A stretch of 64,000 nucleotides of DNA from Terriglobia bacterium (GTDB taxonomy: Bacteria; Acidobacteriota; Terriglobia; JAIQFV01). The position numbers and the translations under genes were made by a program. Position 1 is the first letter of the stretch. Each line of letters opens with the position of its first letter. The notes under the pieces were generated by a model. It was given only the letters and a program-made list of their open reading frames with translations. It had not been told where the DNA came from and ran no database searches. The stretch covers positions 1 through 64,000 of the forward strand of contig JAIQFY010000027.1 of the NCBI GenBank assembly GCA_020072965.1, read 5' to 3'. Of the stretch, positions 7,115 to 62,586 are shown piece after piece.

Positions 7115-8263
7115 TCAGGGTATGTAGAATTCCGAGAGTTGTGCCACGACATATTCCTGCATGGCCGGGGTCAATTCGGGGTACATCGGGAGCGCCAGCA
7201 CTTCGTGGCAGGCTGCCTCGCTGGCGGGGAAATCGCCCTCTTTGTATCCCAGGTACTTAAAGCAAGCCTGCAGGTGCAGCGGGATGGGATAATAAACGGC
7301 TGTAGAAACTCCGCGGCCCTGCAGGAACTTCTGCAATTCATCCCGGCGTTCCACGCGCACGACGTACTGATTGAACACTGACTTTGCGTAGGATTGGATC
7401 ACCGGCCCTCTCACATTCCCTCCGAGTCCGGCTTGGGCCATCAGGCTGTCATAGATCCCGGCGCGCAAGCGCCGAGCGTTGCACCACTCGTCGAGGTATT
7501 TTAACTTCACGCTGAGCGCCGCCGCCTGGAGGGCATCCAGCCGGCTGTTATAACCGACGATTTCATGAACGTACTTGGTGCGTCCCCCATGCATTCTGAG
7601 GAGCATCACCTGATCTCGGAGATGCTTATCATTGGTGACCACCATGCCTCCGTCCCCGAGACCTCCCAGGTTCTTGGACGGGAAAAAGCTGATGCAGCCC
7701 AGGTCGGCCATGGATCCAGCTTTGTGCCAACTCCCCTGAAGGCAGTACTCTGCCCCGATCGACTGCGCAGCATCTTCAAGAACTTTCACCCCTCTCCTTC
7801 CGGTGATTTCAAGGATAGGCTCCATGTCAGCCGGCTGCCCGAACAAATGAACGGGAATAAGGGCTTTCGTTCGGGGAGTCATCCTCGCCTCAATCTGCCC
7901 GGGATCGAGGTTGAACGTCACGGGATCAATGTCCACGAAAACCGGGACTCCGCCTGCGTTGTAAATCGCACCGGCGGTCGCAAAGAAGGTAAAGGGTGAG
8001 GTAATGACCTCATCACCTCGCTCAATTCCCACCGCGCGCAGTCCGAGAAGGAGTGCATCGGTTCCGGAGGCCACACCCACTGCATAGGCCGTGTGACAGT
8101 AGCTGGCAATCTCCGTTTCGAGCGCTTCGACCTTCGGTCCAAGAATGAAGCCTTGCGATTCGAGGACTTCGTGAATTGCCTCTTGCATTTCCCCGCGAAG
8201 ACGTGCGTATTGAGCGCGCAAATCCACTGAGGGGACTTTCATTAGAACAGATGATTTTTCCAT
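7115..8263 (-). CDS. DegT/DnrJ/EryC1/StrS family aminotransferase
   Basis: A 382-residue PLP-dependent sugar aminotransferase. The N-terminus V-P-S-V-D-L-R-A-Q-Y, A-S-G-T-D-A-L-L-L-G-L for the cofactor phosphate, V-L-E-D-A-A-Q-S-I-G-A for the ring-binding Asp, and S-F-F-P-S-K-N-L-G with the Schiff-base lysine are all visible. The family transfers an amino group from glutamate to a keto group of a nucleotide-linked sugar. Because the cluster encodes a 4,6-dehydratase, a 4-keto-6-deoxy sugar is the likely substrate, giving a perosamine-like or similar amino sugar; this is inference. The start is ATG at 8261-8263; a second ATG at 8240 is possible. It lies 69 bases upstream of the RmlD-like gene. 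Confidence 0.88.
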   Translation of the reverse strand: MEKSSVLMKVPSVDLRAQYARLRGEMQEAIHEVLESQGFILGPKVEALETEIASYCHTAYAVGVASGTDALLLGLRAVGIERGDEVITSPFTFFATAGAIYNAGGVPVFVDIDPVTFNLDPGQIEARMTPRTKALIPVHLFGQPADMEPILEITGRRGVKVLEDAAQSIGAEYCLQGSWHKAGSMADLGCISFFPSKNLGGLGDGGMVVTNDKHLRDQVMLLRMHGGRTKYVHEIVGYNSRLDALQAAALSVKLKYLDEWCNARRLRAGIYDSLMAQAGLGGNVRGPVIQSYAKSVFNQYVVRVERRDELQKFLQGRGVSTAVYYPIPLHLQACFKYLGYKEGDFPASEAACHEVLALPMYPELTPAMQEYVVAQLSEFYIP

Positions 8264-8315
8264 GACCTGCTGTTTTGACCTCCCTGAGGGGACTATCTCC
8301 CGATGATGTAATAGC

Positions 8316-8342
8316 CTGCTCCCTGCTCCCAGCTCCAGCTCC
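8316..8342. repeat. Short heptamer repeat (CTGCTCC)
   Basis: Units CTGCTCC, CTGCTCC, CAGCTCC and then AGCTCC follow each other upstream of the aminotransferase gene. The 7-base period is the same as in the larger array at 2936-3144. Confidence 0.55.
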
Positions 8343-8506
8343 GCGCCACTGCACCCAAGGAAAAGGGATTATACTCTTGTGAGGCTCCTGTTCAATCAAG
8401 ATCAGAGACGCAACAACAGGGCCCGGAATGTTTTATTGACATTGAGGGATGCCCCGGCAAGCTCACATCCGCCAATGACCGACCCCTTGCAGCGGAGTGA
8501 CCGGCT

Positions 8507-9352
8507 TCAGCCCTCCGACGTGCGTGCTTCAGCCTTCCATTCCTGTTTCGCAGCCGATCCTTGGACGGCCGGCGTCTTTTCCATTTCATAGATCAGATAA
8601 GCCCATCGTGACTGCGGGATGAAACTTGCGGCCATCCGGTTCAAAGATTCAAATAACCGCTGGACCACGCGCCATCGCCCCAAACCCGGAAACCCATAAC
8701 GGTAATGCAGCACCATCCGAAACACCGGGAAGGGTTGTCGAAATTGCAGCACCGGTAGAAAACCTGTTTCGCGGCGGATCAGATCCTGCAGGGCGAGGGG
8801 AGAGTTGCACTTGATTCCGGCCTCTGCTTTGATCAGAAAGATCTGCAATCGGACAATGAAATTCCTCCCGTTCGGTTCTATGATGATGATCTTCCCTCCC
8901 GGCCGGCAAACCCGCGAGATTTCTTTCAAAGTTGCTTCCCGTTCCGGCAGATGATGCAGGACGTCGCGACACAGGACGATGTCAAAGCACTCCCCGGGAA
9001 AAGGCAGTTGGTCGGCGCGGGAGCAAGCAAAACCGCATTTTGAAAGCTGGCTCCTTGCGAAGATAAGTTTGTTCGGAAAAAGATCGATTCCAAACAATGT
9101 GGCTTCGCTCTCGCCAAGAAAGAATAAATTACCCCCTTCTCCACATCCCACTTCGAGAAGGCGTTGCCCCCGGCGGGATTGAACGCGGTCCAACAAGGTC
9201 TTTTCCGTCTCCGAGAAATAGGGACTGCTGGTTTGATGACGGAATCGCTTGGCATCCGCGGCCTCAAAATAGAGGGATTGAATGGTGGAGAAATTGTCGG
9301 GGGGGATCAATTGAGATTCTGACTTCCTTTGAGGAATTTCGGAATCCGCCAT
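8507..9352 (-). CDS. Class I SAM-dependent methyltransferase
   Basis: A 281-residue Rossmann methyltransferase. Motif I is L-L-E-V-G-C-G-E-G-G-N; the acidic residue after strand 2 is in L-F-G-I-D-L-F; motif IV is F-D-I-V-L-C-R-D-V-L-H-H-L-P; and then I-S-R-V-C-R-P-G-G-K-I. This is the methyltransf_11 type. The substrate cannot be read, but its place in a nucleotide-sugar cluster suggests O- or C-methylation of a sugar or of a lipid-linked carrier. The C-terminal third is rich in basic and aromatic residues and may bind membrane or substrate. It is followed by the aminotransferase gene after 243 bases with no gene. Confidence 0.8.
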   Translation of the reverse strand: MADSEIPQRKSESQLIPPDNFSTIQSLYFEAADAKRFRHQTSSPYFSETEKTLLDRVQSRRGQRLLEVGCGEGGNLFFLGESEATLFGIDLFPNKLIFARSQLSKCGFACSRADQLPFPGECFDIVLCRDVLHHLPEREATLKEISRVCRPGGKIIIIEPNGRNFIVRLQIFLIKAEAGIKCNSPLALQDLIRRETGFLPVLQFRQPFPVFRMVLHYRYGFPGLGRWRVVQRLFESLNRMAASFIPQSRWAYLIYEMEKTPAVQGSAAKQEWKAEARTSEG

Positions 9353-9405
9353 TCGAAGGGCTGCGATTTGACCGTCCCCGTCTTCCGCAAGCCTCCGGTG
9401 GGGGC

Positions 9406-11836
<2,431 letters not shown>

Positions 11837-50291: not shown

Positions 50292-50735
50292 TGTGGCGAA
50301 GTGACGGAGCGGCAGAACCGGGTTTCAACAATCACCAGGATTCGTGTTTTCGTCATAGACGATTTTCTTAAGCCTCGCGCCCTCTTCAACGCGAGCATGA
50401 ACCGACGGATCCGCATAACTAGCTTGGTATAGTGCATACCCCAGTAGGCTCCTCCGATCCTCAAAAGTGACGGCCCAACGCCAGAACCGTCATATGACCT
50501 CAATCCTTGTTTCGATCTGCAAATAGACCTGCACTTTCTTTATTCGCATGGACTGTGAGGGCCCGCGTTGACCCCCGTTTGACCCTTGGGGTATGATCGG
50601 TCTTATCATAGCCGAACCTCACCCACACGGGTGGGCGGTAGCTGACCCTGCGCACAAGAGAGTATCGCGCACTTTACGAATTACACTTCTAACCTTAAGG
50701 GATTGTTCCGAAACACGATCCCAAACGTACTCAGT
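50292..50735. other. Spacer before the sigma/anti-sigma/CHAT operon
   Basis: 444 bases without a gene, containing the candidate operon promoter at 50568-50597 (listed). The sigma-factor frame is open back to 50703 but the first 11 codons look non-coding. Confidence 0.4.
50568..50597 (+). promoter_or_regulatory. Candidate promoter of the sigma/anti-sigma/TPR-CHAT operon
   Basis: TTGACC at 50568-50573 and TATGAT at 50592-50597 are 18 bases apart, about 140 bases before the sigma-factor start. It fits a housekeeping sigma-70 promoter. A second TTGACC at 50579-50584 lies between them; this doubling could be an operator or chance. Confidence 0.45.
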
Positions 50736-51203
50736 ATGGACAGGTTCGAGGAATTATATCGCCGGCATGTCCAAGCGGTGTTCCGCTTCGCGCTCAGTTG
50801 CGTGAGCCGGCGGGAGATCGCGGAAGAGATCACAAGCGAGGCGTTCCTTGCGCTCTTGCGCCACCTCGATGGGATCGACCAGGGGCAACTCCCGGGGTGG
50901 TTGATAACCGTCGCTCGCAACCGGGCGCTCGACTACTGGAGGCGCAGGGCAACTGAGCAGAAGTACCTTGACGGGTGGGAGGATCCTCCGCCCGTTGAAG
51001 TGAATTGGACAGACGGATTCATAGTAGACAATCCGGATTTGAAGCCGATCCATCGGCTGTGCCTCACATTGCGCTACGTGGAAGGCATGAGCCGGGCAGA
51101 AATAGCCCAATCCATCGGGCTTTCGGAAACGCAGGTTAAGGGACATCTGCAATACGGTCTTCAATTGCTGCGCAAGACCATGGCAGAAAAGGAAAGAAAA
51201 TGA
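50736..51203 (+). CDS. ECF-type RNA polymerase sigma factor
   Basis: A 155-residue sigma-70 family protein. Region 2 is F-E-E-L-Y-R-R-H-V-Q-A-V-F-R-F-A-L through L-P-G-W-L-I-T-V-A-R-N-R-A-L-D-Y-W-R-R-R; region 4 is L-R-Y-V-E-G-M-S-R-A-E-I-A-Q-S-I-G-L-S-E-T-Q-V-K. No region 1 or 3 is present, as in ECF factors. It directs RNA polymerase to a small set of promoters when released from its inhibitor. The start is ATG at 50736 (a frame to 50703 exists). It overlaps the anti-sigma gene by 4 bases (ATGA), a sign of coupled translation. Confidence 0.9.
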   Translation: MDRFEELYRRHVQAVFRFALSCVSRREIAEEITSEAFLALLRHLDGIDQGQLPGWLITVARNRALDYWRRRATEQKYLDGWEDPPPVEVNWTDGFIVDNPDLKPIHRLCLTLRYVEGMSRAEIAQSIGLSETQVKGHLQYGLQLLRKTMAEKERK

Positions 51204-52129
51204 ACAAGCTCCCCAGCGACCTCGACGCCTTCGAGGCGGAGGCAATCAAAGAGTCCGGCGGCCTTCTGGACTCGCTCCGGAAGCAAAGATCCGACTGCCC
51301 GCCCGTGCCGATGCTCCGAGCGGCACACGCCGGAGTGCTCACAGAGGAAGTGCAATCCGCAGTCACGGCCCATGTCGCCGGCTGCCGGCTGTGCCGGGTC
51401 CTGCAAGCGGACTTTGCGGCTTTGGATTCGACCGAGGCTTCGCCGCAAGAGGTCGAGCAGATCCTCATCCATGTGCGTCGTCAAGCCGGCAAATCGGACG
51501 GCTCCTCGTTCTGGAGATTCAATATCTTTTCATGGCGGACGGCGATGGCCACCGCCGCTTTGGTGCTCAGTGTTGTCCTCATCGTGTGGGAGGTCAAGAC
51601 CCCGCAACAGCCGGGTCCGGTGCCCTCACCGGTAGCAGAAGTGAAGCCGACCCCCGCCCCACAAATCCCTGAAGCATTCCGGCTGGAAAAGCCGGCGGTG
51701 AAGATGACTCTCGGCGTCCTCACCTGGAGAAGCAACAAGAACGGTCGTGACCAGTTCCTCAAAGACATGGCACCAGCGCTCGAAGCCTACCGCAATGATA
51801 ACTTTAACGCCTCGGCCGACTCCCTTCAAACACTGTCCTCAAAGTACAGCGAATCGGTCGAGGTTTTCTTTTATCTCGGAGTAAGCCGTCTCTTCCTCGC
51901 AGAATACCCAGCCGCCATCAAGGCGCTCGAACAGGCCGCACGCCTCGCAGATGATTCTTTCTCCCCCGATGTTTTGTGGTATCTTTCCATCAGTTGCCAG
52001 CGCTCCGGGCAAACCGAAATGGCCCGGGGTTATTTGCAGCAACTCTGCGGAGGATCGAGCGGGTATGCCGCGCGTGCCTGCGTGGCTCTAAATGGACTTG
52101 ACAGCTCTGCGGCTGCCCCGCTTCGTTAG
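51200..52129 (+). CDS. Membrane anti-sigma factor with zinc-binding head and TPR tail
   Basis: A 309-residue protein. The N-terminal part has H58-V-A-G-C62-R-L-C65, the HxxxCxxC motif of zinc-binding anti-sigma (ZAS) domains. One membrane segment is at about 114-131 (T-A-M-A-T-A-A-L-V-L-S-V-V-L-I-V-W), followed by a Pro-rich linker and TPR-like helices at 190-300 (E-V-F-F-Y-L-G-V-S-R-L-F-L-A-E-Y-P-A-A-I). The head should hold the sigma factor in the cytoplasm, and the TPR tail should lie in the periplasm. The gene starts within the stop of the sigma gene. The TPR tail could contact the exported TPR-CHAT protein encoded 35 bases downstream. Confidence 0.87.
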   Translation: MNKLPSDLDAFEAEAIKESGGLLDSLRKQRSDCPPVPMLRAAHAGVLTEEVQSAVTAHVAGCRLCRVLQADFAALDSTEASPQEVEQILIHVRRQAGKSDGSSFWRFNIFSWRTAMATAALVLSVVLIVWEVKTPQQPGPVPSPVAEVKPTPAPQIPEAFRLEKPAVKMTLGVLTWRSNKNGRDQFLKDMAPALEAYRNDNFNASADSLQTLSSKYSESVEVFFYLGVSRLFLAEYPAAIKALEQAARLADDSFSPDVLWYLSISCQRSGQTEMARGYLQQLCGGSSGYAARACVALNGLDSSAAAPLR

Positions 52130-52164
52130 CCTTCCTCCCACCGGCCAACAACACGATCACATCT

Positions 52165-54993
52165 ATGAAAATGTTTTTGAGGACTCCTCGTCTCCTTGGG
52201 AGCGTCGCGGTTGCCCTCTTTCAACTCACCACATTTGTGCCCCAGAGTTTTGGCGGATGCTGTCTAAGAGAAAATCCCCAGGACGTCAAGGCACCCGGTA
52301 CCCTCCAAGAAGAATTGGACGCCGCCGACCGGCTGGTCGCGGAGGGAAAGGGCGAAGCGGCGCGGAAACTCTATGAGGCAGCAGCGGCGCGAGCCCAAAG
52401 CGAGAAGAACGGCGTTCTTGAATCGCGTGCGCTGGCCTCCATCGGACGGCTGCTTTCCCGTGCGACCCAGTACGTTGAAGCCCAGAAGTATTTGACCCAG
52501 GCACTGCCCCTGGCCGAGGCTGCTGGCGACCATGCCGCCGTCGCGCGGGTATGCGATTCGCTCGGGATTGCCGCCCGATACTTGGGTCGAGCCGACGAGG
52601 CCCGGACCTGGTACAAGAAAGCAGCGGAAGCCGCCGGCCTGGCCGGGGACCTCCGACTCCAAACCAACAGCCTGATTAACCTCGCTGGCTTGATGGAATC
52701 GTCTGACCCTAATGCCGAGAGAACAATCCGCGATGCGACAGAGGTCGCCCACAAAATAGGCGACAAGGATCTCGAGGGGCGGGCTTTTCATCGATGGGGA
52801 GACTTTCTATTCACAACCGGCGATTTCGCCGCAGCGATGGAGAAACTGGATCGCGCCGCTGCACTCTTAGGGGAAATCCGGGATGATGAGGAGCTGGCCA
52901 GGGTCTACACCAGTATGGGCCGACTGAACCGCGCGCACGGTCGGCCGGCCGAAGCGATCCCGCTCTATGAAAAAGCACTCCATATTCAACAGGCGGTGGG
53001 CGACAAGGTCGGTGTGATTCAGAGCTTGAACGCCATGGGTGTGGCTTATCAGGGTCAAGACGATAACAAACGGGCCCGTGAATACTTCGAAAGGGCTTAC
53101 GAATTGGCCCTCAAGACCGATTCTCCCCGCATCATCGACTTCATGCGTGCCAACCTGGCTGGAAATCTCATCGATCTCCACGAATATGCGCGGGCTGCAC
53201 CGTTGCTGGAGGAAGTGCTGCGCCGCGGCGCCGACTCCAATCTGGCGTTCCGTCACGCTCAGCTGTCGGCGGCATACGAAGGAATGGGGCATCTTACCGC
53301 CGCGCGCGAGCAGGCCGACAAAGCGGTGGAATTGGCGTCCGCCAGAGTTGATTACATGCCGGTGGCCATGTCCCAAAGGGCCGAGGTTCGAGAACTGCAG
53401 GGTGATTTTCCCGGGGCGCTGGAGGATGCGCTGGAAGTCATCCGTGTTACCGAGGGAATACGGGAGAGGCTTGTGCCTCTGGATTTCATGAAACAGGGAT
53501 TCAGTTCATATTACCAGCTGGGCTACTCCTTCCTGGTGGGATTGTACCTTCGCCTTGGAAAGCCGGAGAAAGCGCTCGAGGTGGCTGAATTGGCCCGGGC
53601 GCGGGCCTTCCTGGACTTGCTCGCCACCAAGGAAGTCCGTTTGAAGGCAGCCGACGAATCCGCGGTTGCCGCCCTTCGCCGCATCGAAAAGGAACTCCGG
53701 GCGCAAGGCATTGATCCGGCGGAAGCCGCCAGCGCTTCGGAAAACAAATCCAACCCGGTGAAGCGAACCGGCGAAGCAGAATCCTTGCTCCAAAAATGGA
53801 AATCGGGGAGTCCGGAACTACAGAGCTTCGTTGCGGCCACCCCCCAGACAGCTGCTGAGATCATTGCTACAGCTGCCCATCTCCATTCCACGCTCATTAA
53901 TTATTGGGCTGGAAAGGATGCGCTTTACATCTGGGTGGTCAAGCCGGAAGGCAAAGTGGCATCACGGCGGGTGGAGGTTACTGAGAGGCGTCTGACCGAA
54001 CTCGTCAATGCGGCCTCAGCGGTCGGAGCTTCGACCCGGCAAGGTTCGACCCCCATTGTGCGAGGACCTGCTCAGATAGTATCGCCTGCTGCTTCGAAAG
54101 TAGGTTGGACCGAGCTGTACAATCTGCTCATTTTGCCCGTGAGACAGTGGCTCCCGTCCCGGGGACATCGACTGACCATCATCCCGCACGGTCCCCTGAT
54201 GCGACTTTCGTTTGCAGCGCTGGCAAACGAGAAGGGCCGCTATTTGCTGGAAGATTACCCGCTGCACTATGCCCCGGCGGCAGCGCTTCTTGAATTCTTG
54301 GCGGCGAAGAAACGCGAAAAGGACGGCGTGCCCCATTTCCTGCTGGTGGCCGATCCGGCGTTCCCTTCCGCCGTGAAAGGCGAAGACCCTCTTTCACCGT
54401 TGCCGGGAGCGCGCGCGGAGGTTCGGAGTATTGCTCACCTTTTGCCGGCGGAGGCCGTCACAATGCTCCAGGGCCCAACAGCCGACAAGCAGGCGGTTAC
54501 GGCTTGGATGAGCCGCTCCTCGGTGATACATTTCGCGACCCATGGCGTGGGACAGGATTACCAGCCACTGGACTCCTATCTCGCCTTGAGCGGCGGCAAC
54601 GTGGTGGCCGATTCCCGCCTATCGGCCAAGGATATCTATGCCCTTGACCTGCACGCCAACTTAGTGGTTCTCAGTTCCTGCCGGTCCGGTGGTGGCAAGT
54701 TGACGGGAGAAGGGATCGCTGCCCTTGCGCGGGCCTTTCTTTATGCGGGCGCTCCTTCGCTCATCGTTTCGCTATGGGATGTGCCCGACCAGCCGGCCAA
54801 CCGCCTTCTTCCAGGATTCTATGCTTCCTGGCTGCACGGGAGCGACAAGATTGACGCCCTTCGCGCGGCGCAGCTTCACCTGCTCAGGGAGCTACGCGCC
54901 GGCCGCGTGAAAGTGCGGACACCTGCCGGCGACCTGGTGCTCCCTGAACATCCAGTCCTTTGGGCCGGCTTTGTCCTCCTTGGCGAGCCCTGA
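52165..54993 (+). CDS. Exported TPR-CHAT (caspase-like) protein
   Basis: A 942-residue protein. The N-terminal 31 residues look like an export signal (L-L-G-S-V-A-V-A-L-F-Q-L-T-T-F-V) followed by S-F-G-G-C32-C33, a possible lipobox. Residues 45-480 hold about ten TPR units. Residues 640-940 are a CHAT domain with H793 (H-F-A-T-H-G) and C839 (L-S-S-C-R-S-G-G-G), the His-Cys dyad of clan CD proteases. CHAT proteins cut protein partners; the TPR part usually selects them. It is the third gene of the sigma/anti-sigma operon. A role in cutting the periplasmic part of the anti-sigma factor is inferred. The start ATG has no strong ribosome site; ATG at 52171 is an alternative. Confidence 0.92.
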   Translation: MKMFLRTPRLLGSVAVALFQLTTFVPQSFGGCCLRENPQDVKAPGTLQEELDAADRLVAEGKGEAARKLYEAAAARAQSEKNGVLESRALASIGRLLSRATQYVEAQKYLTQALPLAEAAGDHAAVARVCDSLGIAARYLGRADEARTWYKKAAEAAGLAGDLRLQTNSLINLAGLMESSDPNAERTIRDATEVAHKIGDKDLEGRAFHRWGDFLFTTGDFAAAMEKLDRAAALLGEIRDDEELARVYTSMGRLNRAHGRPAEAIPLYEKALHIQQAVGDKVGVIQSLNAMGVAYQGQDDNKRAREYFERAYELALKTDSPRIIDFMRANLAGNLIDLHEYARAAPLLEEVLRRGADSNLAFRHAQLSAAYEGMGHLTAAREQADKAVELASARVDYMPVAMSQRAEVRELQGDFPGALEDALEVIRVTEGIRERLVPLDFMKQGFSSYYQLGYSFLVGLYLRLGKPEKALEVAELARARAFLDLLATKEVRLKAADESAVAALRRIEKELRAQGIDPAEAASASENKSNPVKRTGEAESLLQKWKSGSPELQSFVAATPQTAAEIIATAAHLHSTLINYWAGKDALYIWVVKPEGKVASRRVEVTERRLTELVNAASAVGASTRQGSTPIVRGPAQIVSPAASKVGWTELYNLLILPVRQWLPSRGHRLTIIPHGPLMRLSFAALANEKGRYLLEDYPLHYAPAAALLEFLAAKKREKDGVPHFLLVADPAFPSAVKGEDPLSPLPGARAEVRSIAHLLPAEAVTMLQGPTADKQAVTAWMSRSSVIHFATHGVGQDYQPLDSYLALSGGNVVADSRLSAKDIYALDLHANLVVLSSCRSGGGKLTGEGIAALARAFLYAGAPSLIVSLWDVPDQPANRLLPGFYASWLHGSDKIDALRAAQLHLLRELRAGRVKVRTPAGDLVLPEHPVLWAGFVLLGEP

Positions 54994-55031: not shown

Positions 55032-58000
55032 TCAGTCTCGCCCTAGCCCCGGGTGAAATAGGACCTGTTTCCATCCGTGGAAATAATGCTCCATGGCATC
55101 GTCGCAGTCGCCCTTCGCCAGCGCTTTGTCTCCTTTCAGCAACTCCTCATTCGCCTTATCAATATTCTCATGATCAGTCCCCTCCTGCTGAGCATCTGCA
55201 ATCACTACCAGGGCCAGGAGACGATCTGCGTTGATCAACCGATTGATGAAGGCCTGAAGAACGGCATCAGGGATGTCGCTTTTCTTGTCTCTGATGAGTT
55301 CAACCAGTACGTCGATGCTCTCCTTGTCTTCATTGAAGACCTTCTCCCCACGTTTCGTTTGCAGGTGGGTTGGATCATTCCAATAGCCACTATCGAGCGA
55401 CTTCGTCAAGTGTTGGATGACTTTGTCGAGCCTCTCCCTGTCTTGCTTATCGCCGACCGTAGCGCGGAGCGCCGAGATGGCGCTGAGAACACTTTGCTTG
55501 ATACCGAGAGGCCCCAGCACGATGATAGATACCTCGGCGCTCGCTACGCCACCGTGTCCGTCATTCACGGTAAGCGTCATGTTGTTCGCGCCAAGGGGAC
55601 AGGTGAGCGTTACCAGTGCGTTGGATGCTGACCCGCACGATCCGTTCCAGGAGAATGCGAGCGTGCCTCCGTCAGGAGCGCTGCCGGAGCCGCTCAAATT
55701 GACACTTGCGCCTGTGGGTGCCGTGGCATCAATTATTTGATTCGGCCCTGGATTGACTGTAGGTGGCACGTTCTGAATCCCCGGTGCGCCGGGATCAACA
55801 ATCTCTCCATTTCCGATGCCGTCGGCATCGAACGGAGCGAAGCCGTCGGTCAGAGTCAGGATCACATTGTTTCCCGGGAACACCGCATTTTGGACCGCCA
55901 CAAACTGCCCGGACGGGCCTAAGATCTTCCAATAACTATTGGCGGGGCCGGGCAGAGAGATGGTGACCGTAATCGTTCCGCCGGGTGACACTCCAGCCAC
56001 CGAGAAGGAAACCATTCCATAGGGGAACTGTACCCCGGGCGGAAGTTGTCCCAAGACGGGTGAGACGCTTACGGCATGCAGTGAAGTCCCGGGCGGAGAC
56101 GTGATAGTGATGGGCCCAGCCGGACCAATGACGGTGGCGATATTCCGCGCTGAGACCGTGAGACTGGCGGTGGCGGTGTGCGTCGAAGACGCCGACGTGC
56201 CGGTCACTGTGATGTTCGCTGTTCCACCCGTGGTCAACGTGCTAACGACGAGGGTGAGAGTGGAGCTACCGCCCGCCGTGACCGAGGCGGGGCTGAACGA
56301 GCCCGTCACGCCGGGGGGTAGACCTGAGACGGCAAGGCTGACGTTCTCCGCGACACCACTCGTGAGGGCCGTGGTGATCGTGAAGGTTGTCTTCGCGCCC
56401 TGAGTCAACGATGCGACGAGCGGGCTCATGGCGATTGAGAAGTTATTCGGTGCTGTGACCATAACATCGGCGATAGCGATGTGCGAAGCGGAGGCCGATG
56501 TGCCGGTCAATGTGAAGGTGGTCGTTCCGGTTGTGGCCGCTGCGCTGGCGTTGAGCGTAAGAGTGGAGCTACCGCCCGCCGTGACCGAGGCGGGGCTGAA
56601 CGAGCCCGTCACGCCGGGGGGTAGACCTGAGACGGCAAGGCTGACGTTCTCCGCGACACCACTCGTGAGGGCCGTGGTGATCGTGAAGGTGGTCGTCGCG
56701 CCCTGAGTCAGCGATGCGACGAGCGGGCTCATGGCGATCGAGAAGTTATTCGGCGCTGTGACCGTGATGGTGACGGTGGTCGTGTTGTCGGATAGATTGG
56801 GCTCCGCGAAGGCAACGCACCGCGGGTTCGGGGGGCAGGCGGTCACGGCGGCGGTGTTGGTCAGTGGGGCCGATGCCTGGCCGGCAGGCAGAGCGGCCGC
56901 ATCGATGACGGCATCGTATTCAACGGTCCACTTTCCACCCGGGAGCAATATTTGCTGTTGAGTTGAAGCGGTGATCCAGGTGCAAGCGAGTACCTGCGGT
57001 GTGCCACTCACCGTACAAGTTGGCTGGGGCTCTCCCGCCACGAGAGGAGTTCTCACCGTCCCCGAGGGCGAGGATTGGATCGTCAGCCCCGTGGGCAACG
57101 TGTCCGTCATTGTAAATACCCCGGACCCGGCGCCGCTCGTGGGTCCGTTGCTTACCTCAATGGTGAAGTGAACTGTTTCTCCGACCCCTGCCGTGGCCTT
57201 ATCGGACCGCTTTCGCACGGCCAGGTCCGGAGCGCTCACGGTGATGGTGACGGTGGTCGTGTTGTCGGATAGATTGAGCTCCGCGAAGGCGACGCACCGC
57301 GGGTTCGGGGGGCAGGCGGTCACGGTGGCGGTGTTGGTCAGTGTGGCCGATGTCTGGCCGGCAGGCAGAACGGCTGCATCGATGACGGCATCGTATTCAA
57401 CCGTCCACTTTCCACCCGGGAGCAACATTTGCTGTTGAGTTGAAGCGGTGGCCCAAGTGCAAGTGAGTACCTGTGGCGAGCCACCCACCATACAAGTCGG
57501 CTGGGGCTCTCCCGGAACAAGAGGAGTTCTCACGGGCCCCAAGGGGGAGGATTGGATCGTCAATCCCGCCGGCAACGTGTCCGTCATTGTAAACACCCCG
57601 GACGCGGCGCCGCTCGTGGGTCCGTTGCTCACTTCAATGGTGAAGTGCACCGTTTCCCCGACGCCTGCCGTGGCCTTATCGGACACCTTCCGCACGGCCA
57701 GCTCCGGAGCGTGCACGGTGACGGTGGCGGTGGCCGTGTTGTCGGATAGATTGGGCTCCGCGAAGGCGACGCACCGCGGGTTCGGGGGGCAGGCGGTCAC
57801 GGTGGCGGTGTTGGTCAGTGTGGCCGATGTCTGGCCGGCAGGCAGAACGGCCGCATCGATGACGGCATCGTATTCAACCGTCCACTTTCCACCTGGGAGC
57901 AACATTTGCTGTTGAGTTGAAGCGGTGGTCCAGGTGCAAGTGAGTACCTGCGGTGTGCCACTCACCGTACAAGTGGGCAGGGGCTCTCCCGCAACGAGAG

Positions 58001-61000
58001 GAGTTCTCGGGTTCCCCGGGGTCGCGGAATTGATTGTCAGCCCCGCCGGCAACGTGTCCGTCATTGTAAATACCCCGGACGCGGCGCCGCTTGTGGATCC
58101 GTTGCTCATTTCAATAGTGTAGTGCACCGTTTCCCCGACGCCTGCCGTGGCCTTATCGGAGAGCTTTCGCACGGCCAGGTCCGGAGCCCGAACGGTGACG
58201 GTGGCGGTGGTCGTGTTGTCGGATAGATTGGGCTCCGGCAGGGCGGTGCACGTGCTTGAGGTCGGAGAGCAGGCGGTCACGGTAGCGGTGTTGGTTAGTG
58301 TGGCTGAAGTCTGACCGGTGGGCAGAACCCCCGTGTCGACGACGGCATCGTATTCGAGGGTCCACGTTCCGCCAGGAGGCAATTGATTCTGGACAGAACT
58401 GTAGGCCCATGTGCAAGTGAGTACCTGCGGAGAGACCGACACCGTGCAGAATGGCATGAGCTCTCCTGGCAGGAGTGGAACTCTCAGGTTCCCCAGGGTC
58501 GTGGAATCGATCGTCAGCCCCACCGGCAACGTGTCCGTCATCGTGATTTCCCCATATGTGGCGTCGGCATTGGTTCCGTTGCTCACTTCAATGGTGTAGT
58601 GCACCGTTTCCCCGACGCCTGCCGTGGTCCTACCGGACAGTTTCCGCACGGACAAGTCCGGACCGGGTAGAGGGGCCGCCACAAACATGAAAGCATGGCC
58701 TTGCCCGTTGATTCTGCCATTCCCTGCGATCTGTCCATTGTCATTGACAGTCACTGCCGAATCCAAACTCTGCCAGGCCGGGGACGTGCTCGAAATTGCC
58801 TTCATCACACCGTTTCTATAGATGAATGCACGCTGTCCGTTCGCTGTCGTTGACGCACCCACCGTCGTGCCCGAGCCATTGACAGCGATCGCCCAGCTCC
58901 GTGCCCCCCCCAGAGTTCCGAGGTCACTCATCGCGCCTTGATTGTACAAAAAGGCATGATAGCCCCCGGTTCCCTTATCGACACGACCCACCACTTGGCC
59001 AGAACTGTTCATGGCAACAGCAAAACTCGACAGTCCCCCGGCGCCGATGTCATTCATCACTCCGCGGTCATAAAAAAAGGCATGCTGGGGGTTGGATGCC
59101 GCTGTCGACTGTCCCATCACCTGCCCCAGGTCATTGATGGCGTGGGCTTCGCTATGGCCAAAGAGCCCCCCTCCGAGTGTACCGAGATCCGTCATCCCGC
59201 TGGTGCCATAAAGGAAGGCATGAAAGCCACCGGTACTTTTATTTGCCGCTCCCACCACCTGGCCGGAGTTGTTGATGGCGTAAGCCGTGCTATCCGGTCC
59301 ACCAAGCGTGCCGAGGTCCGTCATCCCGACGCTGTTGCTATAGAGGAACGCATGCGAGCTTCCATCGGCAGTAAATGACCATCCGGTCACCTGGCCGGAG
59401 TTGTTGATGGCGTTGGCAAAGCTGTCTCTTCCACCGAACGTGCCAAGGTCGGCCATCACCCCGTTGCTGTAAAGGAAGGCGTGCGCGACGCCCGCGGCCG
59501 TCATGGAATACCCAACCACCTGGCCGGAATCGTTGATGGCGGAAGGTATGATGTATGTCCCTCCTGGAAGCGTGCCAAGATCGGTCATCACCCCGTTGCT
59601 GTAAATAAAGGCGTGTGTCGCGCCAGTGGCGGTGTAGGAGTAGCCGACTACCTGGCCCGAACTGTTCATGGCCGTGACAGCACTTGCTTGCCCACCGAGC
59701 GTACCGAGGTCAATGATGTTGAATGCCTGCTCCGGCGGCGGCGTTATAAACGCATTGATGGTGATCAAAATGCCTGTGCTGGCTGTCAGTCCGTTCGCGT
59801 CGGTGACGAATACGGTGAAGGTATAAATGCCTTCCAGCGGGGAGGGGTTGGATAAAATCCCGGTTGCCGCGTCAATCCTAAACCCGACAAGAAATCCGGG
59901 CGCGCTCCAGGTATACGGCCCTGTGCCGCCGGAGGCCGACAACGCAAGGCTGTACGGGGCACCCTCCGCCCCCTCTGCAACTGCAGGGGTAATAATGGAA
60001 AAGTCGATGACGGTGGGTCCTGTGAGTTCTCCCGTTTCCGGGAGTCTCCCCGCGATGGTTCCGTCCGATGCTTCGAAGTGGTAGGCGTGCGACCCGACTG
60101 CGAGCGTTGTGGTGAAGGTGTACTGCTCGCCATCCGTGAAATCGCCATTGCGTGACAAGGGGTCCGTGGCCGCGGTGTCCTGCGACATCGCTGAACAGGC
60201 GCCGTCGATGCAGACGTTGACCGAGGTGGGCGCCAGATTCCCCGTGTGTGAATAAACAGTCTTGAAAGTAAACACGGTAGACGCGGTGCCGGTGTCGGGA
60301 TTGACGCCATCGGTCCCATATCCGGTCTCACCAGAATAAGAAAGCACTGGGGCCGGAGGAGGAGGGGGGGTGTTTATCATGGCGATGGCATGGTCATATC
60401 CCGAAGCCACGGCCGCAACGTTCGCCAGTCCGCTCACTTGGACGGGGAGATCGTTTTCAACGGTCGGCTGATTGTCGGCCGGGTTTCCGGCCAGGTAAGT
60501 TCCCCACTCCCAGACCGTCCCGTCGCCCATGAGGGCCAGGGTGTGATTCATCCCTGCCGTGACCGCGATGACGTTGTTCAATGCATTCACCTGAGCGGCG
60601 GGAGTATGGCTCCGGGAATTAGTCCGGCCGATGGGATCGTTGGTCCCGTTTCCGAGCTGGCCGAACTGGTTATTGCCCCATGTCCAGACGGTGCCATCAT
60701 TTTTGAGAGCCACGGTATGACTGCCGTGACTGGCCACGGCGGTCACGCCACTCAGTCCGGCCACCTGAGAGGGAGTCGGGCCGGGGGAATAGACGCTCCC
60801 CACTAACACGGAATCTCCCCAGGCCCAGACCGTGCCGTCGTTTTTGACGGCAACGGAATGTCCCTCGCCTGCGGCTATGGCGACGGCGCCTGTGAACGCC
60901 ACTACAGGTAGAGGTTCTATTCCGGCCGGCTCGAAAGCGAGTTGCAGGGAGGCGTTGGATCCCCAAGCCAGGACCGTACCGTCGCTCTTGAGGGCGAGGG

Positions 61001-61553
61001 TATGAGCGGATCCTGCGGCCACTGCGGTTACACCAGCAAGCCCATTCACCTGGACGGGACTAAAACTATCAGAGTTTGACCCGTCACCGAGTTGGCCATC
61101 CGTGTTACTGCCCCAGGCCCAGACGGTTCCATCGCTTTTGAGGGCCACGGCATGCGATAAACCCGCAGCCACTGCGATCACCCCGCTAAGGCCCTGCACC
61201 TGGACGGGTGCTAAGCTATCAGTGCTTGTACCGTCGCCCAACTGACCTCGCTGGTTAGAGCCCCAGGCCCAAACCGTGCCATCACTCTTGATCACATAAG
61301 TGGCCCCCCCGCCTGCGGCCACGGACAAAACATTGGTAAGAGGCTGGCCCAAACCGTCGATCACCACATCCACACCTGAAAATTTATCGGCGTTCGTTCC
61401 GTCGCCGAGCTGGCCGTAAAAGTTATTGCCCCAGGTGAAAACGTTCCCGCTCGTAATTCTCATGATCGGACGGGATCTGGCCTCGGTGAGGGTGGGGTCG
61501 GTGCTGGCGAACAGAGTGAGCGCAGAGAGAGCAATGACATTCAGCAACTTCAT
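55032..61553 (-). CDS. Giant exported repeat protein (RCC1, HAF, DUF11 and Ig-like domains)
   Basis: A 2,173-residue protein with a signal peptide (M-K-L-L-N-V-I-A-L-S-A-L-T-L-F-A). In order: seven RCC1-like units (V-W-A-W-G-S-N-x-x-G-Q-L-G-D-G) at 36-390; an Ig-like part at about 490-600; eight HAF-type units (L-G-T-L-G-G, A-I-N-N-S-G-Q-V-V-G) at 608-958; four DUF11 repeats (A-G-V-G-E-T-V-H-Y-T-I-E-V-S-N-G) at 961-1600; two Ig-like repeats at 1603-1811; a domain with G-M-V-S-F-S-V-A-G; a PKD-like domain at 1931-2015; and a helical C-terminus. At the DNA level the DUF11 repeats have an exact 477-base period. It is probably a cell-surface or secreted adhesin. The start is ATG at 61551-61553 behind GGAGGAGG. 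Confidence 0.9.
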   Translation of the reverse strand: MKLLNVIALSALTLFASTDPTLTEARSRPIMRITSGNVFTWGNNFYGQLGDGTNADKFSGVDVVIDGLGQPLTNVLSVAAGGGATYVIKSDGTVWAWGSNQRGQLGDGTSTDSLAPVQVQGLSGVIAVAAGLSHAVALKSDGTVWAWGSNTDGQLGDGSNSDSFSPVQVNGLAGVTAVAAGSAHTLALKSDGTVLAWGSNASLQLAFEPAGIEPLPVVAFTGAVAIAAGEGHSVAVKNDGTVWAWGDSVLVGSVYSPGPTPSQVAGLSGVTAVASHGSHTVALKNDGTVWTWGNNQFGQLGNGTNDPIGRTNSRSHTPAAQVNALNNVIAVTAGMNHTLALMGDGTVWEWGTYLAGNPADNQPTVENDLPVQVSGLANVAAVASGYDHAIAMINTPPPPPAPVLSYSGETGYGTDGVNPDTGTASTVFTFKTVYSHTGNLAPTSVNVCIDGACSAMSQDTAATDPLSRNGDFTDGEQYTFTTTLAVGSHAYHFEASDGTIAGRLPETGELTGPTVIDFSIITPAVAEGAEGAPYSLALSASGGTGPYTWSAPGFLVGFRIDAATGILSNPSPLEGIYTFTVFVTDANGLTASTGILITINAFITPPPEQAFNIIDLGTLGGQASAVTAMNSSGQVVGYSYTATGATHAFIYSNGVMTDLGTLPGGTYIIPSAINDSGQVVGYSMTAAGVAHAFLYSNGVMADLGTFGGRDSFANAINNSGQVTGWSFTADGSSHAFLYSNSVGMTDLGTLGGPDSTAYAINNSGQVVGAANKSTGGFHAFLYGTSGMTDLGTLGGGLFGHSEAHAINDLGQVMGQSTAASNPQHAFFYDRGVMNDIGAGGLSSFAVAMNSSGQVVGRVDKGTGGYHAFLYNQGAMSDLGTLGGARSWAIAVNGSGTTVGASTTANGQRAFIYRNGVMKAISSTSPAWQSLDSAVTVNDNGQIAGNGRINGQGHAFMFVAAPLPGPDLSVRKLSGRTTAGVGETVHYTIEVSNGTNADATYGEITMTDTLPVGLTIDSTTLGNLRVPLLPGELMPFCTVSVSPQVLTCTWAYSSVQNQLPPGGTWTLEYDAVVDTGVLPTGQTSATLTNTATVTACSPTSSTCTALPEPNLSDNTTTATVTVRAPDLAVRKLSDKATAGVGETVHYTIEMSNGSTSGAASGVFTMTDTLPAGLTINSATPGNPRTPLVAGEPLPTCTVSGTPQVLTCTWTTASTQQQMLLPGGKWTVEYDAVIDAAVLPAGQTSATLTNTATVTACPPNPRCVAFAEPNLSDNTATATVTVHAPELAVRKVSDKATAGVGETVHFTIEVSNGPTSGAASGVFTMTDTLPAGLTIQSSPLGPVRTPLVPGEPQPTCMVGGSPQVLTCTWATASTQQQMLLPGGKWTVEYDAVIDAAVLPAGQTSATLTNTATVTACPPNPRCVAFAELNLSDNTTTVTITVSAPDLAVRKRSDKATAGVGETVHFTIEVSNGPTSGAGSGVFTMTDTLPTGLTIQSSPSGTVRTPLVAGEPQPTCTVSGTPQVLACTWITASTQQQILLPGGKWTVEYDAVIDAAALPAGQASAPLTNTAAVTACPPNPRCVAFAEPNLSDNTTTVTITVTAPNNFSIAMSPLVASLTQGATTTFTITTALTSGVAENVSLAVSGLPPGVTGSFSPASVTAGGSSTLTLNASAAATTGTTTFTLTGTSASASHIAIADVMVTAPNNFSIAMSPLVASLTQGAKTTFTITTALTSGVAENVSLAVSGLPPGVTGSFSPASVTAGGSSTLTLVVSTLTTGGTANITVTGTSASSTHTATASLTVSARNIATVIGPAGPITITSPPGTSLHAVSVSPVLGQLPPGVQFPYGMVSFSVAGVSPGGTITVTISLPGPANSYWKILGPSGQFVAVQNAVFPGNNVILTLTDGFAPFDADGIGNGEIVDPGAPGIQNVPPTVNPGPNQIIDATAPTGASVNLSGSGSAPDGGTLAFSWNGSCGSASNALVTLTCPLGANNMTLTVNDGHGGVASAEVSIIVLGPLGIKQSVLSAISALRATVGDKQDRERLDKVIQHLTKSLDSGYWNDPTHLQTKRGEKVFNEDKESIDVLVELIRDKKSDIPDAVLQAFINRLINADRLLALVVIADAQQEGTDHENIDKANEELLKGDKALAKGDCDDAMEHYFHGWKQVLFHPGLGRD
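56120..56750. repeat. Two 303-base tandem Ig-like repeats
   Basis: Two copies of a 101-codon unit lie in tandem inside the giant gene. From about 56258 and 56561 onward some 130 bases are identical between the copies, so they were duplicated or converted recently. Confidence 0.85.
56750..58670. repeat. Four tandem DUF11 repeats with an exact 477-base period
   Basis: The marker GTGTTGTCGGATAG occurs at 56782, 57259, 57736 and 58213, each 477 bases (159 codons) from the next. The first three units are nearly identical over long stretches; the fourth is more diverged. Short-read assembly could collapse or expand such an array. Confidence 0.9.
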
Positions 61554-61709
61554 GAGTAAGCCTCCTCCAAATGGAAATTGGAAGGGTTTGACCCCATTCC
61601 AATTCAACAAATAAGAATTTCTACGTGACGCCCAGGGAGCCGTTCCAATCATCGACTGAAACGGATTTGGTCTCGATTAGTCCAGCCAGCCAATTAATGG
61701 GGACTCGAC

Positions 61710-61928
61710 TTATTTCGCTCTGTCTTCAGCAAAGCCTCTTTGGGGTTCTCGAAAAGAAGTAGGTCCGTTGTCGGCCGCGCGATTGGCGCGCGTCATTCTT
61801 GCGCTCGGTTCGCCAGCAGGGAGCGTCTTCTGCCGCGCCTCCAAGACCGATAATGTGGCTTCCAAATACTCAGTGCCGCAGGCCGCTGAAATGACGACAG
61901 CAAATACGACGAAAAGAAGCTTCTTCAT
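61710..61928 (-). CDS. Small exported protein, possible lipoprotein
   Basis: A 72-residue protein with an N-terminal signal M-K-K-L-L-F-V-V-F-A-V-V-I-S-A-A-C-G; the S-A-A-C could be a lipobox or a cleavage site. The rest is hydrophilic and Arg-rich (S-V-L-E-A-R-Q-K-T-L, T-R-A-N-R-A-A-D-N-G) without a known motif. The start is ATG at 61926-61928, preceded by a G-rich ribosome site (AGGGGGC); an ATG at 61952 is less likely. It lies upstream of the giant repeat protein on the same strand, 156 bases before its start. Function unknown. Confidence 0.6.
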   Translation of the reverse strand: MKKLLFVVFAVVISAACGTEYLEATLSVLEARQKTLPAGEPSARMTRANRAADNGPTSFREPQRGFAEDRAK

Positions 61929-62586
61929 ATGGAATCGCCCCCTGTAGCGCATGGGTTGCGCTGCTATCTATTGGGAATACGCGCGGTGGGTGGAAACGGA
62001 ACAATTCAATCCAAAGGAAATTCTACTGGCGTGACCCGTTAAATCAGGTGGCTCCTTCGCCGCCTCCAACGAAGGACGCCGGCCGGTGGAACAGCCTCAC
62101 TATCAGGTGTCTGCGATCATGGCCGGACCTTATGCGACGTCAGCGTCGGACGCCGGCATCCGGAGCCCTTTAGTGTGTGGAGGTTGGTCGTCTTACGGGG
62201 GAACAGGTAACAGTGGAGTCGGTGAGACTCTATGTGAAAACGAGGTGAAGCTGAGGGCGGCGGTAAGAGATGACTCCAATCGGACCGACTGGAAACGGGT
62301 GGCGGCACTGCTGAAATGAGTCGGTCGCTGCCGGCCTCCCAATATCGACGGTGCCCAGCAGGGTGGCGCAGGAGTGCGGGCTTAACCTTTCTGCGTCCAT
62401 CTGTGGAAGATCGTCCCAGTAAAGAACCGGCTGCAGGGCTCATCCTCGCACTCATGGCGCAAGAAAACCATAAGGACAGAAACCTCACGGATCGACGCAT
62501 ACGAAAGTAGAGGGACAGACACCTAATTGATCGAGATCGTCGAGCTTATACAGGAAGCAGGTGTCTGTCCCTGCACTCTTTTGTCT
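61929..62586. other. Spacer with palindromic repeat
   Basis: 658 bases with no supported gene. A 77-codon plus frame at 62086-62319 and a 127-codon minus frame at 62117-62500 overlap and show no family features. The right end holds copy 2 of the palindromic repeat. Confidence 0.45.
62511..62572. repeat. Palindromic repeat, copy 2 (14-bp arms, 34-base loop)
   Basis: AGGGACAGACACCT at 62511-62524 and its exact reverse complement at 62559-62572 enclose 34 bases, the same layout as at 49115-49176. It starts 15 bases past the stop codon of the cupin gene, which is on the minus strand, so both copies lie just after a gene end. Confidence 0.85.

Follow-up and report, generated by a model that had tools for sequence, protein, structure and literature searches.

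A conserved operon of an ECF sigma factor, a membrane anti-sigma factor and an exported TPR-CHAT protein as a candidate envelope signaling unit in Terriglobia

Introduction

In type III-E clustered regularly interspaced short palindromic repeats (CRISPR) systems, the CASP set comprises Csx29 (a TPR-CHAT protein), Csx30 and CASP-sigma, with Csx29 working intracellularly together with the RNA-guided Cas7-11 (PMC10028731). CHAT proteins are also found in the conserved neighborhood of the extracytoplasmic function (ECF) sigma factor group ECF54, for which proteolytic regulation has been proposed and which is described as operating without an anti-sigma factor; the neighbors there are CHAT, subtilase or carboxypeptidase, and the example is actinobacterial (PMC8999054). 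A search of open-licence papers found only this ECF54 remark and the CRISPR case. Here, we analyzed a stretch of 64,000 nucleotides from a Terriglobia bacterium (contig JAIQFY010000027.1; hereafter, the window) and describe an operon that encodes an ECF sigma factor, a membrane anti-sigma factor and a TPR-CHAT protein with a predicted export signal. We refer to anti-sigma/CHAT/sigma loci of this type as type A. The coding features of the operon in the window are:

50736 to 51203, forward strand: ECF sigma factor, 155 residues, with Pfam Sigma70_r2 and Sigma70_r4; orthologs are 49-94% identical.
51200 to 52129, forward strand: membrane anti-sigma factor, 309 residues, with a zinc-binding head, one membrane helix, a proline-rich linker, the motif LTWR(177)S and a TPR-like tail.
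52165 to 54993, forward strand: exported TPR-CHAT protein, 942 residues, with a predicted signal peptide at about residues 1-30, TPR repeats and a CHAT domain at residues 650-942.
54541 to 54543 and 54679 to 54681, forward strand: codons of the dyad residues H793 and C839, assigned from Pfam and the ortholog alignment.

The unit resembles CASP in that the same three kinds of protein, a sigma factor, its inhibitor and a TPR-CHAT protease, are encoded together in both. In both, a motif for the sigma factor also lies close to home: sigma-binding motifs occur in the CASP-sigma locus itself, and a promoter-like element stands at the operon described here. Furthermore, the His/Cys dyad required for cleavage in CASP is conserved. 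However, the CHAT protein in the window carries a predicted export signal, so it would not be a cytoplasmic TPR-CHAT protein, and the protein that would inhibit sigma spans the membrane once and has a zinc motif. Because the compartment and the kind of inhibitor differ, the unit may work like CASP without being CASP; our best call is that it is an envelope analog of Csx29/Csx30/CASP-sigma and not a member of that system. In PADLOC, the three proteins matched no named defence or cas-like family, a generic TPR model aside. We found no tandem array near the operon with a tandem-repeat finder, a tool not designed to detect CRISPR arrays, and the genome was not searched for Cas7-11.

The RseA/DegS/RseP/RpoE pathway offers a second parallel, with a one-pass anti-sigma factor, an ECF sigma factor, an expected periplasmic protease step and M50 proteases. 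In contrast to that pathway, the candidate site-1 protease here is an operon-encoded, caspase-like CHAT protein and not a DegS-type serine protease, and the anti-sigma tail is TPR-like. With ECF54, the unit shares CHAT-domain neighbors, whereas a membrane anti-sigma factor adjoins the sigma gene here in every locus with enough flanking sequence. On balance, we take the unit to be a new variant of protease-coupled, or protease-gated, ECF signaling.

Results

Conservation of the three-gene unit

The CHAT protein was searched against 200 class genomes, a profile of the anti-sigma factor against 399, and a profile of the sigma factor against the phylum. These searches returned 14 type-A loci in 13 genomes, and the unit is carried by ~3% of the sampled class genomes. 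An earlier note on this DNA, made from the letters of the window, had staked its proposal on the gene order occurring outside this genome; the order is kept in six families and two classes (f1, f3, f4, f5 and f9, plus f37 of another class). The sigma gene lies directly before the anti-sigma gene in all 13 loci with enough sequence; in L059, the contig edge was reached before the sigma gene. A CHAT gene is present in 13 of the 14 anti-sigma loci, L102 being the one without. Eleven loci (the window, L053, L060, L061, L063, L098, L099, L100, L101, L103 and L117) have the order sigma, anti-sigma, CHAT. L062, of family f9, is rearranged to CHAT, sigma, anti-sigma, and L098, another f9 locus, is among those in the usual order. 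Outside the genus, this order persists in f3, f4, f5 and f37, with identities to the window of ~50% for the sigma factor, 25-36% for the anti-sigma factor and 31-39% for the CHAT protein.

The flanking genes of the type-A unit differ among families and classes, and the type-A CHAT proteins form one clade (support 100). Since the three-gene grouping is conserved across families, we conclude from these sequence comparisons that it is not due to chance. Pairwise distances of the anti-sigma factor and CHAT correlated at 0.81, those of sigma and CHAT at 0.77, and those of sigma and the anti-sigma factor at 0.55 (a near-identical pair left out); these values were obtained without a control for species phylogeny, and common descent alone can yield them. 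When named genomes were searched for related loci, nothing beyond a distant TPR match came up.

The L102 locus (genome G120, 8206-9635) holds a type-A sigma/anti-sigma pair and the promoter-like element with no CHAT gene, and thus provides a natural control for a CHAT requirement.

Operon layout and the sigma gene

The earlier note had read this region as a single operon of an ECF sigma factor, a membrane anti-sigma factor and an exported TPR-CHAT protein, and we observed the same three open reading frames. The sigma gene ends at 51203 and the anti-sigma ATG is at 51200, reproducing the ATGA overlap it had described; the 35-base gap from the anti-sigma end (52129) to the CHAT start (52165) was likewise recovered from the reading-frame coordinates. 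Its operon start at 50568 was revised. The sigma start is most likely the ATG at 50736 instead of an upstream TTG, because orthologs of other families begin there too. Position 50568 falls on the -35 hexamer of a sigma70-like match, both hexamers of which are kept in the same-genus genome G001:

50568 to 50597, forward strand: TTGACC-N18-TATGAT ahead of the sigma gene, a possible housekeeping promoter by consensus match only.

The sigma protein matched Sigma70_r2 (2e-15) and Sigma70_r4 (1e-9) in Pfam and carries regions 2 and 4 only, as ECF sigma factors do.

The membrane anti-sigma factor

The anti-sigma factor has the pattern of class I, or zinc-binding anti-sigma (ZAS), proteins, in which a Cys...HxxxCxxC head is followed by a membrane helix; sigma binding and inhibition are predicted from this pattern. 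The ligands H58, C62 and C65 proposed earlier are conserved, and a fourth that had gone unmentioned, C33, completes the set; all four are kept in nearly all orthologs. The first zinc-ligand Cys is replaced in the L102 protein, and HxxxCxxC is not intact in that of L117. A Pfam scan of the window protein gave no zinc-finger (zf-HC2) match, and the ZAS assignment is made by motif. We located the single membrane segment, as claimed before, at residues 114-130, and a membrane helix is present in every type-A anti-sigma factor.

In the tail, Pfam detected only weak TPR similarity. The tail Cys pair C283/C294 occurs in 13 of the 14 type-A anti-sigma factors, which fits an oxidizing compartment but is no proof of one. 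Between the membrane and the tail, Arg177 is invariant in 14/14 proteins and is always followed by G, S or D, in a stretch that is otherwise variable around it. This arginine is a candidate cleavage or docking site, and a structural role is equally possible. A profile search of solved structures yielded a sub-significant match to the anti-sigma factor DdvA (E 0.58). Single-sequence AlphaFold models were set aside, with a mean predicted local distance difference test score of 45 for the anti-sigma factor and 34 for the CHAT domain.

The exported TPR-CHAT protein

The third protein matched CHAT (PF12770; 1.5e-67) and TPR_12 in Pfam and is, by sequence, a clan CD caspase-like peptidase with predicted activity. 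Its H793/C839 dyad, previously described as intact, is invariant in 20 exported CHAT proteins, namely all type-A proteins and seven more distant ones that are coupled to membrane anti-sigma factors. A profile search of solved structures returned only TPR-type proteins among the 60 matches listed.

The export claim of the earlier note held for an ordinary signal peptide, which is conserved, but not for a lipobox at C32/C33: a same-genus ortholog has the same kind of signal peptide with no Cys there, and a lipobox-like motif occurs in 2 of 13 orthologs. By inspection, an N-terminal hydrophobic signal is present in every type-A CHAT protein, those of L099 and L101 being short and below the threshold of our script. 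A cytoplasmic CHAT protein, which would have spoken against the proposal, is not what the sequence suggests; an export signal is predicted. Given this signal and the one-pass anti-sigma factor, both TPR regions are expected on the periplasmic side, and the predicted topology fits the idea that they share one compartment.

A promoter-like element at the sigma start

50703 to 50730, forward strand: element TTGTTCC-N16-CGTA directly before the sigma ATG, read as a putative autoregulatory ECF promoter of a leaderless or near-leaderless mRNA.

The conserved element TTNTTCC-N16/17-CGTA at sigma starts is new here. It was first spotted by eye near the starts and then tested with the sequences anchored on the conserved sigma start; a 4+4 motif search of longer upstream regions had not risen above the shuffled controls. 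Allowing one mismatch at most, the element occurs in 9 of 11 non-redundant type-A loci, 55-58 bases before a conserved Tyr codon in 8 of the 9 and 79 bases before it in L102. Shuffled sets contained it in 0.07 of 11 loci on average and contained any motif in at most 3 of 11; the latter is the fair figure because the element had been picked with the sequences already in view. A number of known ECF promoters have CGTA as their -10. In most loci, it ends a few bases before the ATG or GTG, suggesting a leaderless mRNA; in L099, L100 and L102, the sigma reading frame, taken at its longest, encloses the element. We infer that the element is a promoter of the sigma factor encoded beside it.

Copies of the element and a probable regulon

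The strict form, TTNTTCCG-N15-CGTAY, has three copies in the 5.9 Mb genome: the one before the sigma gene, one on the opposite strand at 61977-62004, and one inside a coding region. The sister genome G001 carries the first two of these sites and contains no further strict copy with that spacing. When the spacer was lengthened by one base, we observed one further match in the window genome and three in the sister; the sites inspected were coding sequence. The second site stands before a group of secreted-protein genes:

61977 to 62004, reverse strand: second element TTGTTCC-N16-CGTA, a probable regulon promoter before a secreted-protein cluster 7 kb away; in the same place in G001.
61710 to 61928, reverse strand: small open reading frame, 72 residues, with a signal peptide (MKKLLFVVFAVVISAACG...), the first gene after the second element.
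55032 to 61553, reverse strand: giant secreted repeat protein (RCC1, HAF, DUF11, choice-of-anchor U), behind the second element and the small reading frame.

The 72-residue protein has no Pfam match and has a homolog in L053, where its arrangement with a giant repeat protein is repeated. We regard the giant protein as a probable output under the control of the switch. In G019, the element occurs twice behind the CHAT gene in near-identical form; one copy stands before a 286-residue secreted protein, and a third copy, on another contig, precedes a secreted protein of ~500 residues or more. In G020, the sole strict longer-spacer copy in 5.2 Mb lies near the operon, before a secreted protein that is homologous to the C-terminal part of an element-preceded protein in G048. 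Copies at the operon and at secreted-protein genes suggest that the switch probably regulates itself and secreted proteins. In most other genomes, genome-wide counts of the element were not above a reversed-pattern control, so a regulon is not established there, and no strict copy was found in forty other CHAT loci (500 kb).

The DUF11 part of the giant protein (region 55032-61652) consists of four 477-bp units in tandem (86% match; repeats 56764-58662), and the giant protein of the sister genome is shorter (1787 residues), suggesting a change in repeat number. Two genera share a homologous secreted domain (LKPEEQVAxLFV...AGLGGF) behind the element, at L060:12559-13098 and L059:1657-3051, both on the reverse strand; it is fused to a CsgG-like part in one genus, and the smaller protein has no Pfam match. 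Another Sigma70_r2 gene (G000:C39:65521-65721, forward strand) lies ~1.5 kb past the end of the window.

CHAT-sigma coupling in the wider class

We next considered 40 CHAT loci from other genomes, chosen by CHAT similarity and not by their neighbors; 42 CHAT genes were considered. A sigma gene lay within three genes of 28 of the 42 CHAT genes in the class, against an expected ~7% per 10 kb neighborhood, calculated from the 13-43 Sigma70_r2 genes per genome in eight genomes. This suggests that coupling to an ECF sigma factor is the norm for CHAT in the class. Distant CHAT-sigma loci were not counted as orthologs of the type-A unit. Across all loci scorable together, exported CHAT proteins pair with membrane anti-sigma factors and signal-less CHAT proteins with soluble zinc proteins; L118 and L137 were re-read by eye for this scoring, and L117 lacks the zinc motif. 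We rejected the match of compartments as independent statistical support, as it traces to a single switch on the CHAT tree.

A separate, cytosolic system (L050, L054, L058, L065, L118, L119, L127, L141, L143, L146 and L151) has an ECF sigma gene that overlaps or adjoins a signal-less TPR-CHAT gene, usually beside a soluble zinc-motif protein of ~200-250 residues; two copies are present in the window's own genome. Like the type-A unit, such loci place CHAT beside an ECF sigma factor and a protein with a zinc-type motif, but their CHAT proteins lack a signal peptide and belong to a separate clade, and their zinc proteins lack a membrane segment. A further group (L120-L122, L128, L129 and L134) has the order sigma, ZAS membrane protein, a protein of ~250-275 residues (EKRFLFHA..LPxxGG) and CHAT, with a lipoprotein-like CHAT signal in several; the one copy of the ~250-275 residue protein that was scanned (L122) had no Pfam match. 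In L112, L113 and L114, the CHAT-coupled membrane anti-sigma factors have periplasmic tails that by eye look Ig/FN3-like and not TPR, so the type of tail varies while CHAT stays.

Discussion

We reasoned that the exported CHAT protein may serve as the site-1 protease of a self-contained envelope signaling unit with the ECF sigma factor and its anti-sigma factor, a reading to which we assign a probability of roughly 0.5. A one-pass anti-sigma factor, its zinc-binding head in the cytoplasm and its TPR-like tail in the periplasm, would keep the ECF sigma factor at the inner membrane. The TPR-CHAT protein would share the periplasm with that tail and be the most likely site-1 protease. An envelope signal would be sensed by the TPR region of CHAT or by the anti-sigma tail, and CHAT would then cut the periplasmic stretch between the membrane and the tail. 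A site-2 (M50) protease and cytoplasmic proteases would subsequently free the sigma factor, and M50 proteases are present in the genome. The freed sigma factor would transcribe its own operon and nearby secreted-protein genes from TTNTTCC-N16/17-CGTA promoters. CHAT suggests itself as the protease of the first cut because it is encoded in the operon, is exported by prediction and has an intact catalytic dyad. The interpretation in the earlier note is therefore supported in part: the conserved unit and the predicted topology stand, and cutting or binding of the anti-sigma factor by CHAT is a proposal.

Several observations weigh against assigning CHAT this role. L102 keeps the sigma factor and the anti-sigma factor, including Arg177, with no adjacent CHAT gene, and the CHAT search of class genomes found no type-A CHAT elsewhere in that genome; the anti-sigma factor can thus exist without CHAT, and Arg177 may be structural. 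Craspase CHAT proteases and their orthologs cleave at non-conserved sites (PMC11106740), so a conserved arginine is not what would be expected of a cleavage site, and Arg177 should not be over-read. The match of compartments is weak as a statistic because it reflects one evolutionary switch, not many. Lastly, a gene that is purely an output would be found in an autoregulated operon as well.

That last point leads to the main rival, a serious one that we consider possible though clearly less probable: CHAT would be an output of the sigma factor, exported along with other secreted proteins, while another site-1 protease or a ligand releases the sigma factor and the anti-sigma tail senses something else. 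With the element in front of it, the entire operon is a likely target of sigma, an exported CHAT fits among the other probable targets, which are secreted proteins, and L102 manages without it. However, those other probable outputs vary from genome to genome, whereas 13 of 14 loci retain CHAT, and a wide range of sigma/anti-sigma families are coupled to CHAT.

A reversal of roles, in which CHAT is held back by TPR-TPR contact with the anti-sigma tail and acts on some other envelope substrate, so that release of sigma and release of the protease would be two arms of one signal, seems to us improbable. TPR-like regions on both proteins in the same predicted compartment would allow such contact, and the anti-sigma and CHAT sequences change together, but the CHAT-coupled membrane anti-sigma factors of L112-L114 have tails with no TPR-like sequence. 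We think it very unlikely that CHAT is a signaling scaffold and activates the anti-sigma factor through binding alone, with no cleavage; a large TPR region is typical for protein binding, yet the His/Cys dyad is invariant in all 20 exported CHAT proteins. Unrelated neighbors, brought together by coincidental order or passive synteny, are refuted by the recurrence of the unit in six families and two classes amid different flanking genes.

With CHAT as the preferred site-1 protease, a broader and more tentative view is that the exported CHAT protein is dedicated to its ECF anti-sigma factor in this role and that coupling of CHAT to ECF sigma factors in matching compartments may be a general architecture of the phylum, of which Craspase would be one specialized relative; we hold this somewhat less firmly than the site-1 role itself. 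CHAT proteins are common in bacteria, and their substrate and signal are known for few. The unit described here offers a candidate substrate next door, a compartment, a readable output in the element and its secreted targets, and a natural control that lacks CHAT. With candidate substrate, output and control in hand, the function of non-CRISPR CHAT proteases would be directly testable by a reporter.

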